Source of the DNA: a virus
Length of the DNA: 24,252 nt
Virus record (IMG/VR): IMGVR_UViG_3300047494_000271
Span: 1-24,252 of that record
Strand: one strand, 5' to 3'
Positions 314 through 15,881 of this stretch are shown here, piece after piece. The stretch's first letter is position 1, and each line of letters begins with the position of its first letter. A program made the position numbers and the translations under genes. The notes beneath the pieces were generated by a model. It saw only the letters and a list, made by a program, of their open reading frames with translations, was not told where the DNA came from and did no database searches.

Positions 314-2101
314 CTACGGCGCCGGAAACATCGACGGCTTGAGCAAGCCTGCGGCCACCGCCGCCTGGTGCAGCGCGGCTGAAGGGTGGACCCCGTCCGC
401 ACTGGCTGAACCCAGATCCGTGCGCCATTTGCCGGATCCGCCTTGATCAGCAAACACGACGTCATCATCGACAACGCCAGCGCACCCAAGTGCGGCAGCC
501 TGATGCCGAAGATAGGTATTGTAGGATTGCCGGTACGTCTCGGCTGCCGATGAGCCAGCAGTCCCACTTCCAAAGCTTAGCTTTGTGGCAGCCGGTATCG
601 CCGTGGCCACTGGAATTGATACGGACAACGACGTGCCATTGACGGCCGTGATGACAGTGCCAGGCGCAATTCCAGACCCCGAAATCGCTTGACCAACGGC
701 AAGATTGGAGACGCTTGCCATGGCAATGACCGCACTGCCCGCCGGCGTGACCGCACTTGAGGTAGTCGCAACCGCGACGGTCCAACTTTGATTTGCCAGC
801 GTCGTCCAACCATCATTGCTCTGCGTCGTTGGTGGTATCGTGAAGCACCAAACCCGCTTTCCAGCAGTGCCGTACCGCGCAGCAATCTGCGCGATACTCG
901 CCTCCAGCTGGGCGTCCGTTTCCTGGAAGGAGAGAATGTCATTGCGACCATCTTCCAGAAGAACGTCCGTCACACCTGTATCCACGGAGAGAGCGTACTG
1001 ACCGTCCCCATGTGCCGCGACCGAAAACGCTGTCGTCGATCCGCGGGCTGCTGTGATGAAGCCAATTGTATTTTCCAGGCTTCGCTGAATATACCCTTGG
1101 AATCCCAAAGCGTCCGCCGCATCGCCAGTGCCCGCGGCAATACTGTCTCCAAGGATCAAAAGCGCCCCTTGCGTACTCTGGCCCGGAGACACTGTCACCA
1201 GCCCGAGCAACGCGACAGGACACCAGTAGCCGCCACCAGTATTGGCAAGCGAACTCGGGATTGTTGTCTGATCAGATAGGCTTGTACTTCGGTTATCGAA
1301 TTCGCCACTTAGCCGGGAGCCCGCGCCAGGATAGTCCATCAACTGCATGCCCACGCCGGACATGGATGCGAAACTCCGGATGTAGAACATGGTGCTGGGC
1401 GGCAACTCGGTTGCAATCGCGTCAGACGTCACAACGTCATGCGCTGGCTCTACTGTAAAGCTGCGCTTGCCACCAAACTTGGCTGGAGTGAACAGGCCAA
1501 TGAAATTGAACGGCTGACCAGCAGCAGTCGCGGCTGTCGTCGGACTGCTGATCGTCACGATTGTGGAAGCCGGTATATTGCCTGAGCCGCCCACAAAGCT
1601 ATTGGCAACGGAAACTACATATGTATTGGGGGCAATTCCCCCACCACTACTGGTGACCATCTGACCGGCGCTTATTGAGTTGGCGCCAAGTGCCGTCGCC
1701 GAGAAGTTGAGCACGGTTGAGCCCACTGGCACGGAGCCGTTGGACACCACGACATTGCTGTTGCCAGTCGGCACATAAACGGCAGCGGTTCCCGTTGCCG
1801 TCACCGGCCGATCGGTCTCACCCTGTTGGGGCTGATCGAACGCCGCGTAAACAAGCTTCAATGCGGTCACTGTGCCGTAAGATGGCGAAATACAAGCCAC
1901 CTGGTCCATCACCACAGTGTTCGTATTGTCAAACCACGCACTTGATCCGTTGATGCCGCGCCTCGAACAGATCGGCACCCAGATTTGCCGTCCAGTCAGT
2001 GCACGCAGAGATTTTTGCGGTGTCACAACGGAGGCTTGCGCCGAAGACATCGGTAGCGCCATTGCCGCGCAGAGCAGACGTCGCATGGCCAAGTGCCGCA
2101 T
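314..2101 (-). CDS. Secreted SGNH/GDSL-family esterase with two beta-repeats
   Basis: 595 residues. A signal peptide is predicted over residues 1-23 (MRRLLCAAMALPMSSAQA). The SGNH catalytic blocks are visible: GDSIAAG at 318-324 (nucleophile Ser320), a Gly at 354 in ARGST, GRND at 385-388 (Asn387), and DGVHPS at 569-574 (Asp569, His572). The family hydrolyses ester bonds, often O-acetyl groups on polysaccharides, so deacetylation of a surface glycan is a reasonable inference. A GSGIAPGT-type repeat occurs twice, near residues 127-187 and 455-510; the second copy sits between the Asn block and the Asp-His block. GGGAGGGG before the ATG is a strong ribosome-binding site. It starts 2 nt after the preceding gene and follows the tailspike module. 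A Sec signal is unusual for a virion protein, so it may act from the lysogen's envelope. Confidence 0.8.
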   Translation of the reverse strand: MRHLAMRRLLCAAMALPMSSAQASVVTPQKSLRALTGRQIWVPICSRRGINGSSAWFDNTNTVVMDQVACISPSYGTVTALKLVYAAFDQPQQGETDRPVTATGTAAVYVPTGNSNVVVSNGSVPVGSTVLNFSATALGANSISAGQMVTSSGGGIAPNTYVVSVANSFVGGSGNIPASTIVTISSPTTAATAAGQPFNFIGLFTPAKFGGKRSFTVEPAHDVVTSDAIATELPPSTMFYIRSFASMSGVGMQLMDYPGAGSRLSGEFDNRSTSLSDQTTIPSSLANTGGGYWCPVALLGLVTVSPGQSTQGALLILGDSIAAGTGDAADALGFQGYIQRSLENTIGFITAARGSTTAFSVAAHGDGQYALSVDTGVTDVLLEDGRNDILSFQETDAQLEASIAQIAARYGTAGKRVWCFTIPPTTQSNDGWTTLANQSWTVAVATTSSAVTPAGSAVIAMASVSNLAVGQAISGSGIAPGTVITAVNGTSLSVSIPVATAIPAATKLSFGSGTAGSSAAETYRQSYNTYLRHQAAALGCAGVVDDDVVFADQGGSGKWRTDLGSASADGVHPSAALHQAAVAAGLLKPSMFPAP

Positions 2102-9606: not shown

Positions 9607-10131
9607 CTAATCCGTTGGTTCGGGTCCGGCGTTGGACGGAGGATGCACATGCTCATTGTAATGACCGCGCAACTGCGCGAGGGACCCGTGCGAATCGAAG
9701 ACATCTCCGCTGACACGAAAGTCTCCGCTATGCGTCCATACCGATGCGGAACTCTCTATTGAGCCATCATTGTGCAATTTCAGGAAACTGCCTGTCTTAT
9801 GCTGCAACCATAGTTCACCCACGGGGATCTCCGGCGGTGGCACAGAGCTCGACCAGAGGCGGGCAACAATTATGCCTTATTCTGAATCTCCTTCTTGCCA
9901 AATGACCAGCACCTGGTCTCCGGGTGCCGGCAAACATGCCAGGCCCCAGCCGGCCCCAACCCAGGCCGACGCTATGGGTAGCCACCCCGACAACACACCC
10001 TCCGGCTGAACACTGACCCGTGCCGAATACGTTGCGGGATTGATGGATGATATGATTGCAAGCCGAGGCTGTGCCCACCCTTGATCAAGTTGCGAGGCCT
10101 GAGCTTTGAGTTGATTTAAGAAATTGTCCAA
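9607..10131 (-). pseudogene. Baseplate spike gpV interrupted by one in-frame TAA
   Basis: A 174-codon frame is split by one TAA at 9877-9879. The first part (84 residues, apparent TTG start with GAGGA about 10 nt upstream) has the gpV N-terminal OB-fold pattern: PRLAIISSINPATYSARVSVQPEG, then SGWLPIASAW and GDQVLVIWQEGD. The same frame continues after the stop with GIIVARLWSSS and then HKTGSFLKLHNDGSIE and HVHPP, the usual remainder of a P2 gpV central spike. The usual sequence here is GDxExGVVxGRLWS, so TAA replaces a single codon and nothing else is lost. A GTG at 9843 could restart the second part, but I see no ribosome-binding site before it. gpV forms the membrane-piercing tip and is essential, so this is a nonsense mutation, a read-through stop, a sequencing error or two reinitiating pieces. 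Confidence 0.75.
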
Positions 10132-11295: not shown

Positions 11296-11972
11296 ACCAG
11301 GATGCCTTCTAAATTCGTGATTGTCCGCCCCACGTAGCCTTGTGCTGTTGCGAGTTGCGCCAAAGTTCCGGACGAACTCACCAGTTCTGACAAGTCTTGC
11401 GAGTCAAGTCCCTGCTCCGCCGTTCCAATGTCGGACGTAATCGCCGTCAAGACAGCACTCAAGTCGCTCAATACCAATGGAATTCCACTTGCGCCTATAG
11501 TCAATGCAGACGGCGTGGAAAGTGTCGTCACGATGGAGGAAACGTTGACATATGATGAAGCCAATGAAAGATCACCAAGCACACTTGAAGCCAAGTCTAG
11601 CGTCAGAGCTGTGCTTGACTGAGCAAGATCGCTCACCACGAGACACTCGATCCGATAAGTAATCCACCATGGATTACAGAAGTCGAACTCGAGTTGGCCG
11701 ATAATCACGTCATAGCAAAATGCATCCCATGCAAGCGCCAGCGCTGCTCCACTCACCCGCATGGCGTCCAATGTGCGCGCACGATCACCAGCATCTGAGC
11801 CTGATAGCACGCCATGCCAGGTCAAGGCGCAGTCATCACGCCCCATCGTGTCTATAATTCTCGCGCCGCCGATCAGGTTATGAATGATCGCCTTCTGCGC
11901 GCCGCCAAATCGGACGTTTGCGGGAACTTCAAAACCGTCAAGCTGCAAAGTCCCGAGAGTCATCAAGGCCAT
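11292..11972 (-). CDS. P2 gpU-like or DNA-circulation-type tail protein
   Basis: 226 residues from the ATG at 11970-11972, which shares its A with the TGA of the tape-measure gene (TGATG). A longer frame upstream lies inside that gene and is rejected. The N-terminal half (LDGFEVPANVRFGGAQKAIIHNLIGGARIIDTMGRDDCALTWHGVLSGSDAGDRA) resembles the beta-rich gpU-type or tail completion/DNA circularisation family. The segment QLEFDFCNPWWITYRIECLVV follows, then a Ser/Thr/Leu-rich C-terminal helical region. Family is inferred from the pattern and from its place between tape measure and X. Confidence 0.6.
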   Translation of the reverse strand: MALMTLGTLQLDGFEVPANVRFGGAQKAIIHNLIGGARIIDTMGRDDCALTWHGVLSGSDAGDRARTLDAMRVSGAALALAWDAFCYDVIIGQLEFDFCNPWWITYRIECLVVSDLAQSSTALTLDLASSVLGDLSLASSYVNVSSIVTTLSTPSALTIGASGIPLVLSDLSAVLTAITSDIGTAEQGLDSQDLSELVSSSGTLAQLATAQGYVGRTITNLEGILV

Positions 11973-13051
11973 CAGGTCCCCACAGTTGCGCCAGGCAACA
12001 GTTGCCCCCGGCGCCCATCGAACCCAGTCGGCCCTGCGGATGCGCGTCCAGCCTCTCGCGCCAGAAAGCGGGACATCCACCTGCCAACCAACATTCCGTC
12101 CAAATATACGTCGCCTTCAACGGGGCCCTGCGTCCCGGCCTTAGGTTCAGCATCGGCCGACGCAGATGAAGCCCTTGCGGGCGCCAACGCAACGCTCGCT
12201 AAAGATGGCGCGGCACTTGATGGTTGCGCTACCTGCTCATGCCATGCATCGCGTCCAACACCTTCGATTTCTTGTCGAGCTGCCGGAGCCCTTTCCGAGT
12301 GCTGTTCGATCCTACGGCCGAAGTCCGGCACATCGGTCGGCCCATAGCTACGCAACGCTCTGTTGACATCCCCACGATTTGTCTGATTCAAAGAAGACCG
12401 GTCTCTACCTTCCGATCTCATCTCTGTTAAGGACGCGGCGGACGATGTCAGAAGTGCTGGCCTCGCCGTTGCCGTCGGCTGTTGAACCCGGATAGTCGGA
12501 ACGCTGTTCCATCTTTCTGAATCTGAAGTTCCCGTAACCTGAATTGCCGTGAATGACGTGCTTTCCGGCGTCACGGCGGGGCTCTGCTCCCGGACCGATC
12601 CATTCATGCCTGTCTTAGGCGGAGCCACATCGACCGCAGGCGCAGAGGGTTTCTGAGCAGATGACTGGACCGCATCCGGACTGAGCGCCTGCTTTGCAGT
12701 TGGCTCGGCCCAATCGCCCCTATCTGTATTATTCGTTTGAGACGCATCCGTATCCGTCAACAATGGCGGTGCGCGCACCAGATCCATCGCCAACGCGCTT
12801 GGCGTTGCTTGATCCATCGGGACCGTGATCGCCGGCGTGCCCGCTGCCTCTCCTCTCACGTCCTGCCCGCCGCCTCGTGGTTGGATTGCCGGATTGGCCT
12901 TCGCCGCCGTCTTCCGCAACTCCGCAATCGAGACCCCACCTGTCGCTAGTACCCGCTGCAGCGTGGCGATTTCCTCGCGAGCGCGCGCTATCCCCTCCGA
13001 CACACCGTCATTAAGGGAAAGCGTGACCCCAACTTCATAAGTCTCGCTCAT
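11972..13051 (-). CDS. Putative tail tape measure protein, short and low-complexity
   Basis: 359 residues. The N-terminus (VGVTLSLNDGVSEGIARAREEIATLQRVLAT) has the short strand plus helix usual at the start of tape measures. The C-terminal 47 residues from 313 (GDVYLDGMLVGRWMSRFLAR, then PTGFDGRRGQLLPG) match the end I associate with tape measures of alphaproteobacterial prophages. Residues about 55-310 are rich in Pro, Ala, Ser, Thr and Gln, with no transmembrane segment or lytic motif, and look disordered rather than coiled. It overlaps the previous gene by 4 nt (ATGA). A tape measure of this length would imply a tail of very roughly 50 nm at about 0.15 nm per residue. It is shorter than usual for a sheath-bearing phage, so it may be reduced. 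Confidence 0.62.
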   Translation of the reverse strand: MSETYEVGVTLSLNDGVSEGIARAREEIATLQRVLATGGVSIAELRKTAAKANPAIQPRGGGQDVRGEAAGTPAITVPMDQATPSALAMDLVRAPPLLTDTDASQTNNTDRGDWAEPTAKQALSPDAVQSSAQKPSAPAVDVAPPKTGMNGSVREQSPAVTPESTSFTAIQVTGTSDSERWNSVPTIRVQQPTATARPALLTSSAASLTEMRSEGRDRSSLNQTNRGDVNRALRSYGPTDVPDFGRRIEQHSERAPAARQEIEGVGRDAWHEQVAQPSSAAPSLASVALAPARASSASADAEPKAGTQGPVEGDVYLDGMLVGRWMSRFLAREAGRASAGPTGFDGRRGQLLPGATVGT

Positions 13052-13323
13052 GGCAGCAACTCCTGAAGCCGTCGTTGTAGTAACGACAGCATTTCTGCCG
13101 TCGTGTGACGCACTGCAGTCTCAACCGGTGCAGATGGCGGCTTGGATAGTCCTCCTCGCTCGGCTAGGTAAACTTTGGCGGAGTTGCTCGTAATTACCAC
13201 TTTGTCATCCAAGACACTCTGGCTCAACTCGTGCGGTAACCCTTGCGAAGCCAATGCCGTCCTGACGCCCTCGGCCAGTAAGTCACCAGCCTCCATCAGG
13301 GCATCGGCTATGGCTTCTTCCAT
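13048..13323 (-). CDS. Small phage protein after the tail assembly chaperone
   Basis: 91 residues. GGAG lies about 9 nt before the ATG, and the first 16 nt overlap the end of the frameshifted chaperone frame. The stop overlaps the tape-measure start (ATGA). The protein is mixed: an acidic/Ala-rich N-terminal helix (EEAIADALMEAGDLLAEGVRTAL), a beta-like middle (VVITSNSAKVYLAERG) and a Leu-rich C-terminal helix (AEMLSLLQRRLQELLP). I do not recognise the family. Position between chaperone and tape measure suggests a tail assembly role, for instance a chaperone partner or a tail-associated factor. Confidence 0.6.
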   Translation of the reverse strand: MEEAIADALMEAGDLLAEGVRTALASQGLPHELSQSVLDDKVVITSNSAKVYLAERGGLSKPPSAPVETAVRHTTAEMLSLLQRRLQELLP

Positions 13324-13819
13324 CGCTGCGTTCTCCAGTCATAATCAAGCCCATCAAAACGCCCCATGACGACAACCCAGACGGTCCGTTCATCCGGCGA
13401 GAGACTGAACGCAACATCAAACGGCACCCCGTTCTTGACCAAATAGAGGCTGTCAACCAGATCGGGGTGCCAACTCAGTTTCCCTGGGCGGCACTCCCCA
13501 ACGCAGGATTGGCCTCTGATGACAATGCAGCGGCAACCGCTGATATACCTATGTCGCCCAACCGGCCAACCAGCGCTTCAACCTGTCCTTCCGTAACGGG
13601 AGGCGGGACCGGAACCGTATCAACGCAGACGACGGATGCCGCAAGCATTGCCATCCCCAGATAAGCATCGTTTTGGGACAATGTCGGCCCAATTGCCTTA
13701 AACAAGCGAAGACGTTCAAGTGCAGACATCCGTCGCAACACGAGTTCTCGTCCACTCGCGTCACTGGTCACGATGGTCGCTGACGATGCCGCTATAATTT
13801 GAGCGCTCGGCGAGCCCAT
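13308..13819 (-). CDS. Tail assembly chaperone, -1 frameshift extended product
   Basis: A -1 slip on GGGAAAC (13478-13484) moves the ribosome past the stop at 13475-13477. The new frame reads LSWHPDLVDSLYLVKNGVPF, then DVAFSLSPDERTVWVVVMGR and FDGLDYDWRTQRWKKP, ending at TAG 13308-13310. The extension is 56 residues and the fused protein 170. The extension (NGVPFDVAFSL, WVVVMG, FDW) looks like the C-terminal domain of phage tail assembly chaperones, which recruits tube subunits to the tape measure. No standard single-frame annotation would report it, because the second part has no independent start codon suited to it. The mechanism is inferred from the site; the frames were read directly. Confidence 0.8.
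13423..13484 (-). promoter_or_regulatory. Programmed -1 ribosomal frameshift signal
   Basis: Reading the minus strand: the heptamer G GGA AAC (13484-13478) lies in the zero frame, then a 6-nt spacer TGAGTT containing the TGA, then GGCACCCCG (13471-13463) which pairs perfectly with CGGGGTGCC (13431-13423). Inside the loop TTGAC (13456-13452) pairs with GTCAA (13439-13435). The pattern X XXY YYZ with 6 nt to a GC-rich 9-bp stem is what stimulates -1 slipping in known phage chaperone genes. All parts were read directly from the sequence. Confidence 0.85.
13475..13819 (-). CDS. Tail assembly chaperone, short (unshifted) product
   Basis: 114 residues from the ATG at 13817-13819, which overlaps the tube stop by 1 nt (TGATG). 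The product (RELVLRRMSALERLRLFKAIGPTLSQ and on) has the helical, hydrophobic character of gpG-type chaperones that bind the tape measure. The stop TGA lies directly after AAC, at 13475-13477. In lambda-like and P2-like phages the short form is made in excess and the extended form is a minor product. The equivalent signal here is described at the frameshift site. Confidence 0.8.
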   Translation of the reverse strand: MGSPSAQIIAASSATIVTSDASGRELVLRRMSALERLRLFKAIGPTLSQNDAYLGMAMLAASVVCVDTVPVPPPVTEGQVEALVGRLGDIGISAVAAALSSEANPALGSAAQGN

Positions 13820-14247
13820 CAAATTCTCTGCCGCTGAGTTGCAAAGAATTCGAGTTTTTGTTTGACCGTCGCATCGCCTCGCCAGGTGCCAGCGTTTACG
13901 AGCTTGAAGACTACGCCGCTATATTGATACGTGGACGTCGACCCGTCCACTTCCGTGATATACTGGTAGACTGTACCCGCCGGCAAGGAGCCCTGGGATA
14001 GGAAAGCCTGTTCAGACGCCGCGATGAAGTCATCAACTGCGCTTGTGCCCCGCTCCACCTCAAAGCTTCCTTCCCAACCTTTGGGCAACTCTGCACCCAT
14101 TGGGATCCCGTCAAGTCGGTCCAGTCGAACCGATTGCGTCATTTGTCTACTTTCGAAGCCTGTCACATAGGTTAGGTCGACACGCCCCTGCGGCCCCATC
14201 ACCACAAGTTGGCAATCGCGCCCGATCGAAAATGAGTTGATCGGCAT
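13819..14247 (-). CDS. Tail tube protein
   Basis: 142 residues, usual for the inner tube of contractile tails. It starts with the family-like MPINSFSIGRDCQLVVMGPQG and continues VDLTYVTGFESRQMTQSVRLDRLDG, IPMGAELPKGWEGSFEVERGT and DGSTSTYQYSGVVFKLVNAG, TWRGDATVKQKLEFFATQRQRI. The alternating strand pattern fits a two-sheet beta-barrel of a tube subunit. GGAG is about 10 nt before the ATG. It lies 62 nt after the sheath, the sheath-tube order of P2-like tails, and polymerises inside the sheath as the DNA channel. Confidence 0.85.
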   Translation of the reverse strand: MPINSFSIGRDCQLVVMGPQGRVDLTYVTGFESRQMTQSVRLDRLDGIPMGAELPKGWEGSFEVERGTSAVDDFIAASEQAFLSQGSLPAGTVYQYITEVDGSTSTYQYSGVVFKLVNAGTWRGDATVKQKLEFFATQRQRI

Positions 14248-14309: not shown

Positions 14310-15881
14310 CTAGACCACCCCGCCAGGCAAAACCTGCCTTTGTATCGCCACGGTTTGACCGCCCTCCACATTTACGATGAACTTTTCATTGATGCTCTGG
14401 AATTGTACCTGCGCATCACTCTGAACAAAGCCCAGGCTCGTGCGGCTAAAGGGATTGTTACTGCTGTCGCAGATTACTGTGAATGGGGGAGTTCCATCCG
14501 TGCTTCCCAGTATCCCCTGCGCGAACAGAGTCTGTAGGAAACTCAGTTGTGTTGATCTTATCTGCTGGAATAGTGCGGTGTTGATAACCTGCCCAACAAA
14601 TTGACCCATGCCAGCCGCGAGGGTAGCAGCGACGTAGTTTGTCAAGCGCGTGTAATTATCCCCATTAGTCGCCGCGTTCGAGGATGTGTTATGTCCGCAC
14701 CGGACGCCCCAATATGCCCCCCCTGGTTGGGGATTAGAGATCACGTCGATGCCATTCTGAAACAGCATTCCAAGCTCGGCATCACTGTACGTAGAGGTTT
14801 GGCCGCTCTGAGGCACTCCGGACCGTTGCGTTCCCACCACGCTGTAGAGCGGCTTGTTGAGGCTGGATTGCTCTGGGGAAAGGTTAGCCAAACGCCCCGC
14901 GACAAACCCCTGTGGAGACACCAGACGTAGCAAACCGTTTGTCTGATCGTTCCAGAAGACCCAGTCCCCAAACATCAACTTAGCCGCGTATGTGTCCAGG
15001 CCTGCCTGTTGCTTGGCTGTAATTGCCCCTGCAATAGTCTGCCCAATTGGCCCGGTCAAAACCATGTATACGCCTTCAGACAGGCCGAACGCTGCCTCCG
15101 TAGACCATTGCGTAGGATCATCCAGATCGGCTAAAACACCAATCCCGCAGCCTTGCGAACGTAGAGCAAACATGCCGGTGCGAGGGATCAGATCCTGCCC
15201 GACGATCATGGCGGCCGTCACTCCCACCGCGCCGTCGCTGCCTCCGGACAGGCTCTGGGCAGCAATCGTCACAGGTGCGCTTGAGGTGACCGTGCCAATA
15301 GTCGCCACCACAACCTGGGACGGTCCCCGAAGCGGCCCGCTGCCGGAGTTTACCGCACTGACCAGTGCTTGCCAAAAGAGGGGCGATGTGGGAGCCACCA
15401 AATTCGGATAGACTTCTGGTACACTGCCAGGCATATGGACAATCAACATCCATTGCCCTGGGGTTGACCCCGGTTGCAACGCCACAGTAACGGTGTTGCC
15501 AAGCGAACCCGTATATCGTGCCGTCAGCAAAACAGCAAAGCTGCCGCCGCTCAGCCCAAGCGCGTAACTTGCTGCGGTGTCAGTACCGTCGGTCACCCTT
15601 ACACAACGGAAAGACGAAGCGCCCTGCTGCACCGCTGTGGCAACTGCCGTTCCCATATCGTATTTGCGCGCCGCAATTGGTCCAAAGCTTGCTGCATAGT
15701 CGGACATTGTAGCAACAGCAACGGGTTGGTTGCTCGGGCCCCAGGATGAGGTCCCAACCATGCCTACGATGTTCGTTGGAACACCGTTCAATACCAGGTT
15801 CTGCGGCGCCACAATCTGCACGTAAAGGTCAGGAACAACAAGCGACGTCGTGTTCAATGAGCCTTGCTGATAGACCGGCAT
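14310..15881 (-). CDS. Tail sheath protein
   Basis: 523 residues, in the family range. AGGGAG is about 9 nt before the ATG. The opening (PGLYVQIVAPQN-like: VVPDLYVQIVAPQNLVLNGV, PTNIVGMVGTSSWGP) and the end (SINEKFIVNVEGGQTV) fit a phage tail sheath. A conserved stretch near residues 265-290 (EGVYMVLTGPIGQTIAGAI) and the C-terminal NGDNYTRLTNYVAATLAAGMGQFVGQVINT are typical. The sheath contracts round the tube during injection, so the phage is myovirus-like. The tube gene follows at once. Confidence 0.92.
   Translation of the reverse strand: MPVYQQGSLNTTSLVVPDLYVQIVAPQNLVLNGVPTNIVGMVGTSSWGPSNQPVAVATMSDYAASFGPIAARKYDMGTAVATAVQQGASSFRCVRVTDGTDTAASYALGLSGGSFAVLLTARYTGSLGNTVTVALQPGSTPGQWMLIVHMPGSVPEVYPNLVAPTSPLFWQALVSAVNSGSGPLRGPSQVVVATIGTVTSSAPVTIAAQSLSGGSDGAVGVTAAMIVGQDLIPRTGMFALRSQGCGIGVLADLDDPTQWSTEAAFGLSEGVYMVLTGPIGQTIAGAITAKQQAGLDTYAAKLMFGDWVFWNDQTNGLLRLVSPQGFVAGRLANLSPEQSSLNKPLYSVVGTQRSGVPQSGQTSTYSDAELGMLFQNGIDVISNPQPGGAYWGVRCGHNTSSNAATNGDNYTRLTNYVAATLAAGMGQFVGQVINTALFQQIRSTQLSFLQTLFAQGILGSTDGTPPFTVICDSSNNPFSRTSLGFVQSDAQVQFQSINEKFIVNVEGGQTVAIQRQVLPGGVV

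Follow-up and report, generated by a model that had tools for sequence, protein, structure and literature searches.

A conserved, predicted −1 frameshift cassette in the tail assembly chaperone gene of a contractile-tailed phage and its relatives

Phage P2 carries, in a contractile-tailed virion, a small chaperone gene with a −1 extension ahead of the tape measure gene (E/E'), and the Escherichia coli dnaX gene combines an upstream Shine-Dalgarno (SD)-like element, a slippery heptamer and a downstream stem; the locus described here resembles each of them in those features. The lambda heptamer is presumably of the same type as ours, G GGA AAN, and the P2 E/E' slippery site is one that we take to be different. 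The Xu-Hendrix-Duda set of 2004 is said to group with lambda G/GT. Lambda makes mostly the short chaperone and a minority of the fusion, at a fixed ratio of about 30:1 (PMC5009743, where the dnaX stem and SD element are also mentioned), and frameshifting of about 6-7% has been measured in HK97-like chaperone genes (PMC3711429). In 2012 the gp18/gp19 genes of Burkholderia phage KL1 were reported to have GGGAAAC directly before TGA, with a predicted stem-loop downstream (PMC3483164).

Here we document the anatomy, conservation, RNA-level selection and gene order of a comparable cassette in a 24,252-base IMG/VR virus record (hereafter the window), which holds on its minus strand head and tail genes for the terminase, portal, major head protein, sheath, a tube-family protein, the chaperone, a presumed tape measure protein and the baseplate. 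The sequence evidence makes it very likely that this is a programmed −1 ribosomal frameshift of the lambda G/GT type in a contractile-tailed phage.

Anatomy of the cassette and its gene neighbourhood

The zero-frame, G-like open reading frame of the tail assembly chaperone (TAC; 13475..13819, minus strand, like all cassette features below) translates into 114 aa. It runs from an ATG at 13819, which overlaps the stop codon of the tail tube gene, to a TGA at 13477-13475. The slippery heptamer G GGA AAC (13478..13484) lies in zero-frame phase and is directly abutted by this stop (13475..13477). After a 6-nt spacer (13472..13477) begins a 9-bp stem, whose 5' arm GGCACCCCG (13463..13471) pairs perfectly with the 3' arm CGGGGTGCC (13423..13431). 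The −1 frame encodes a T-like extension (13311..13478) that begins LSWHP and stays open for 56 codons up to a TAG at 13310-13308. A preliminary description of this DNA had listed the in-phase heptamer, the stop, the spacer, both stem arms (13471-13463 with 13431-13423) and the 56-codon frame; all of them were confirmed, and its coordinates proved exact. The second, 5-bp helix that it proposed inside the stem loop held up in part: the TTGAC/GTCAA pairing is present (13456-13452 with 13439-13435), but the minimum-energy fold uses only four of its five pairs, together with three others. An RNA folding check of the kind that it had suggested put 13423-13477 at −23.8 kcal/mol; relative to dinucleotide-shuffled sequences the z score is −2.96. 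One element was absent from its list, a Shine-Dalgarno-like GGGGAG (13494..13499), which, as in dnaX, is a candidate for stimulating the slip from the 5' side; its GGAG core ends 10 nt before the slip codon GGA.

From this arrangement we infer the slippage itself, its rate and the binding roles of its products. Most ribosomes would read G GGA AAC and stop at the abutting UGA, yielding the 114-aa chaperone. In a minority both tRNAs would slip back one base at the heptamer, aided by the 9-bp stem that starts 6 nt beyond it and probably also by the upstream SD-like GGAG. These ribosomes would read 56 more codons, and their product would be a fusion of chaperone and extension, 170 aa long. If the roles are those known from lambda, the tape measure protein would be coated by the short form, and recruiting the tube protein would fall to the extension.

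The TAC matches phrog_20383 (E=3e-20), as do 46 of 46 homologues; that family is labelled as of unknown function, and neither Pfam nor NCBIfam gave a credible match to the chaperone. Searched against 350,542 PDB chains, its AlphaFold model (pLDDT 88.9) had as its top two matches both 2ob9 chains of the HK97 tail assembly chaperone; these are weak (E=0.058/0.12, TM 0.41-0.44) and well separated from the other chains. Two homologues each match chaperone PHROGs (phrog_508, phrog_344; E about 0.002). A sequence search of the PDB with profiles of the chaperone and the extension returned unrelated weak matches only.

The neighbouring genes, all on the minus strand, are those of a contractile tail. 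Upstream lie the sheath gene (14310..15881; phrog_23, E=1.4e-45) and the tail tube gene (13819..14247), assigned by position and matching phrog_12993 (E=1.6e-43); the same tube gene precedes the TAC in loci L018, L022 and L234. Downstream, after the extension and ahead of the tape measure gene, a 91-aa ORF (13048..13323) occupies the place that a tail completion/Neck1-like protein has in relatives; its counterparts in L008, L022 and L234 match phrog_26/phrog_222, and the window copy has no match. It is followed by the presumed tape measure gene (11972..13051, 359 aa), which is likewise assigned by position: the window copy lacks a significant match, and tape measure PHROGs are matched by the corresponding genes of L018, L022 and L234. 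The TAC thus sits between the tube gene and the positionally assigned tape measure gene, and the order in relatives is sheath, tube, TAC, Neck1-like ORF, tape measure. Gene order and the HK97 structure match together back the chaperone identity given in the preliminary description.

Other features of the window deserve mention. The presumed tape measure protein, of low complexity, has 359 aa compared to about 580-650 aa in several relatives, and a short tail may be expected from it. Beyond the tail genes, 314-2101 (minus strand) encodes a 595-aa protein that matches a family of lysophospholipase L1-like esterases (phrog_8480). An in-frame TAA at 9877-9879 (minus strand) interrupts the gpV-like gene for the baseplate spike. 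We considered this split gene as a second recoding event and rejected it: in all 32 relatives where that position could be read it codes for His or Gln (CAT, CAC, CAG or CAA), so the TAA is a lone nonsense codon, possibly an error or decay.

Conservation of the split frame and selection at the RNA level

We scanned genome and viral contigs for relatives and compared 131 distinct loci, which span Acetobacteraceae, other Alphaproteobacteria, Betaproteobacteria, Pseudomonas (Gammaproteobacteria) and Planctomycetota; L007, L018 and L008 are Acidisoma, Rugamonas and Limnoglobus loci, respectively. Of the 131, 128 retain both the −1 arrangement and a heptamer in phase, namely 126 plus two (L119 and L174) added after inspection. 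The heptamers of the 126 are GGGAAAC, AAAAAAC, AAAAAAG, AAAAAAA, GGGAAAT and GGGGGAA, mostly GGGAAAC or AAAAAAN; GGGGGAA has already been noted as a motif in SEA-PHAGES joined genes (PMC10885494). Conservation in over a hundred related phages makes the frameshift signal almost certainly real. Relatedness makes these sequences statistically dependent (at 60% identity the 126 loci fall into 21 clusters), so the counts given here for conservation and for the stem are not to be read as probabilities. Among 50,697 GenBank phage records, tblastn found no match to the fused protein, to two distant homologues or to the L189 chaperone.

Some loci depart from the common pattern. L119 turned out not to be an exception, its chaperone frame having been misassigned; AAAAAAC sits there 3 nt before TAG. 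L174 has none of the listed heptamers and carries an in-phase C CCT TTG, found also in a Rhodovastum plasmid copy. In the sub-branch that includes L174 and L284 (the Rhodovastum plasmid, Acetobacteraceae and one viral contig), C CCT TTG is the only in-phase heptamer.

The extension, which had been described as a conserved-looking domain, proved to be a conserved protein: residues L13, V14, G17, V18, P19 and D21 are invariant among 47 diverse homologues, around a core LVKNGVPFD. Its AlphaFold model is a confidently predicted small helical domain (pLDDT 92.6) with helices at 5-15, 20-25 and 28-41. No Pfam or PHROG family matched the window extension, and a fold search returned nothing significant, only small helical proteins and no solved-structure match. 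In two RefSeq plasmid relatives the short protein is annotated and the extension is uncalled, as had been anticipated for standard annotation. A conserved domain is thus hidden in the −1 frame, undescribed in the family databases searched and omitted by RefSeq in these two relatives.

Because the stem lies inside coding sequence, we tested it against random synonymous recoding. For the window sequence, given the encoded peptide, a 9-bp stem arises with P = 0.037 under random synonymous codons, so that the single sequence is only suggestive. Across the family, 92 of 123 loci can form 8 or all 9 of the pairs, where recoding predicts about 11 such loci and yields 20 at most, and sliding one arm by 1-3 bases lowers the mean number of pairs from 7.8 to 3.3-4.3. 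The codons within the stem are fixed: His is CAC in 64 of 65, Pro is CCC in 68 of 73 and Gly is GGG in 69 of 77, against background shares of 0.58, 0.20 and 0.29, respectively. In the 3' arm GGG GTG is fixed, and the next Pro, whose third base is just outside the stem, varies freely, with all four codons in use. Moreover, the pair at alignment columns 15-59 covaries (C-G, A-U, G-U, G-C and U-A). In a sample of 25 stem-bearing loci the sequences fold on average 3.4 SD below their recoded versions; stem-less loci, mostly of AAAAAAN types, show little folding signal relative to recoding. This stem is absent in about 31 of the 123 loci, mainly AAAAAAN types, and as most AAAAAAN-class relatives outside the close group lack it, we do not claim it to be universal. 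At the level of sequence comparison, RNA-level selection is visible at the cassette, and we regard the family-wide pairing together with the conservation of the heptamer as decisive evidence.

The upstream element is enriched in one class of heptamer. Among 65 distinct sequences of the GGGAAAY class, 48 have an SD core at 4-16 nt before the slip codon, compared to 13.4 ± 2.6 after recoding, and the core most often ends 10 nt upstream of that codon; the AAAAAAN class showed no enrichment. As a candidate stimulator, the SD-like GGAG would probably help frameshifting.

These comparisons also bear on other ways of accounting for the split frame. The window is a single metagenomic record and another of its genes has a lone in-frame stop, so a sequencing error or gene decay might have divided one ORF. 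The chance of this is negligible: the same split recurs in more than 120 distinct loci, and a fused, uninterrupted frame occurs in none of the 131, which already refutes the error or decay reading. The preliminary description had named such a fused homologue, along with loss of the heptamer or stem in relatives, as evidence that would count against frameshifting; heptamer and stem are both conserved in relatives. Alternatively, the frames might be joined by transcriptional slippage, a reading favoured by the relatives with A AAA AAA/C/G, which have runs of at least six A. This is highly improbable for the window, as the longest single-base run in its heptamer is three and the conserved RNA structure 3' and SD-like site 5' of the heptamer point to the ribosome.

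It is also conceivable that ribosomes terminate at the abutting stop and reinitiate there, so that chaperone and extension are made as two separate, unfused proteins. Three loci (L011, L014 and L190) offer a precedent: they have no slippery heptamer, and an in-frame ATG overlapping or near the chaperone stop opens the extension frame. Because of this combination their extension may start at its own ATG, which suggests stop-start coupling in place of frameshifting. In the window, however, the region around the stop offers no ATG from which the extension could start, and what is strongly conserved is not an extension ATG but the heptamer with its stem and SD-like site, so we consider reinitiation very unlikely there. 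Ribosomal frameshifting remains our preferred explanation.

The stop codon next to the heptamer

The zero-frame stop lies directly 3' of the heptamer in 98 of the 126 loci, one codon on in 12 and six codons on in 16. Codon usage in the shifted frame departs from background at these positions. Where the heptamer is AAAAAAC, rare codons are used: CTA encodes the first shifted Leu in 16 of 19 cases (background 0.055), ATA a shifted Ile in 8 of 8 (0.066) and GTA a shifted Val in 5 of 7 (0.082). Where it is GGGAAAC, AGY encodes the Ser that follows Leu in all 78 cases (0.39). Each such choice creates a stop codon at the heptamer or beside it, and, judging from them, the abutting stop is under selection. 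The identity of the stop tracks the heptamer, with GGGAAAC loci having mostly TGA and AAAAAAN loci mostly TAG; the second shifted residue partly sets it.

When the HIV-1 site was tested in bacteria, as cited in PMC4373837, a stop right after the slippery site lowered −1 frameshifting, the release factor being a competitor. For this reason frameshift efficiency in the window may be low. Such competition between stop and slippage, taken with the selected presence of the stop here, suggests that the phages could use termination to hold the frameshift yield down. More tentatively, and with less than even likelihood in our view, the abutting stop might be a selected control element that pits the release factor against the slip, the ratio of short to extended protein following host RF2 activity at GGGAAAC-UGA or RF1 activity at AAAAAAN-UAG; if true, this would be a release-factor-gated phage frameshift family. 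With more than 120 natural variants, which differ in heptamer, stop, stem and SD-like site, the family is a ready series for studying how phages tune frameshift yield, and it bears especially on why the stop so often abuts the slippery site.

Relation to described systems

In the library family searches no sequence relation was detected between P2 E/E' and the window cassette, whose extension gave no recognisable E' match there. In dnaX the frameshift shortens the product, whereas in the window cassette it would extend it. Like lambda G/GT, the locus has a predicted −1 slip late in the chaperone gene, lies between the tube and tape measure genes and is expected to yield short and extended forms. 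It differs from lambda in that the phage is contractile-tailed, the stop abuts the heptamer, a strong stem follows and an SD-like site precedes it; library family searches gave no recognisable sequence match between the window extension and gpT.

The closest likeness in geometry is to KL1, which has GGGAAAC-TGA, a stem-loop predicted 3' of it and a further gene between the cassette and the tape measure gene (PMC3483164). KL1 is a siphophage, however, with an extended protein of 264 aa and an extension of about 120 aa (PMC3483164), and tblastn against the phage collection did not recover it as a homologue of the window. The preliminary description had singled out the placing of the stop immediately after the slippery site; the placement is real, but it is not novel, KL1 already having an abutting stop. 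Since the GGGAAAC-TGA geometry of KL1 was published in 2012 (PMC3483164), the window cassette is not a new phenomenon but a new, well-supported family that very likely uses a known phage mechanism.
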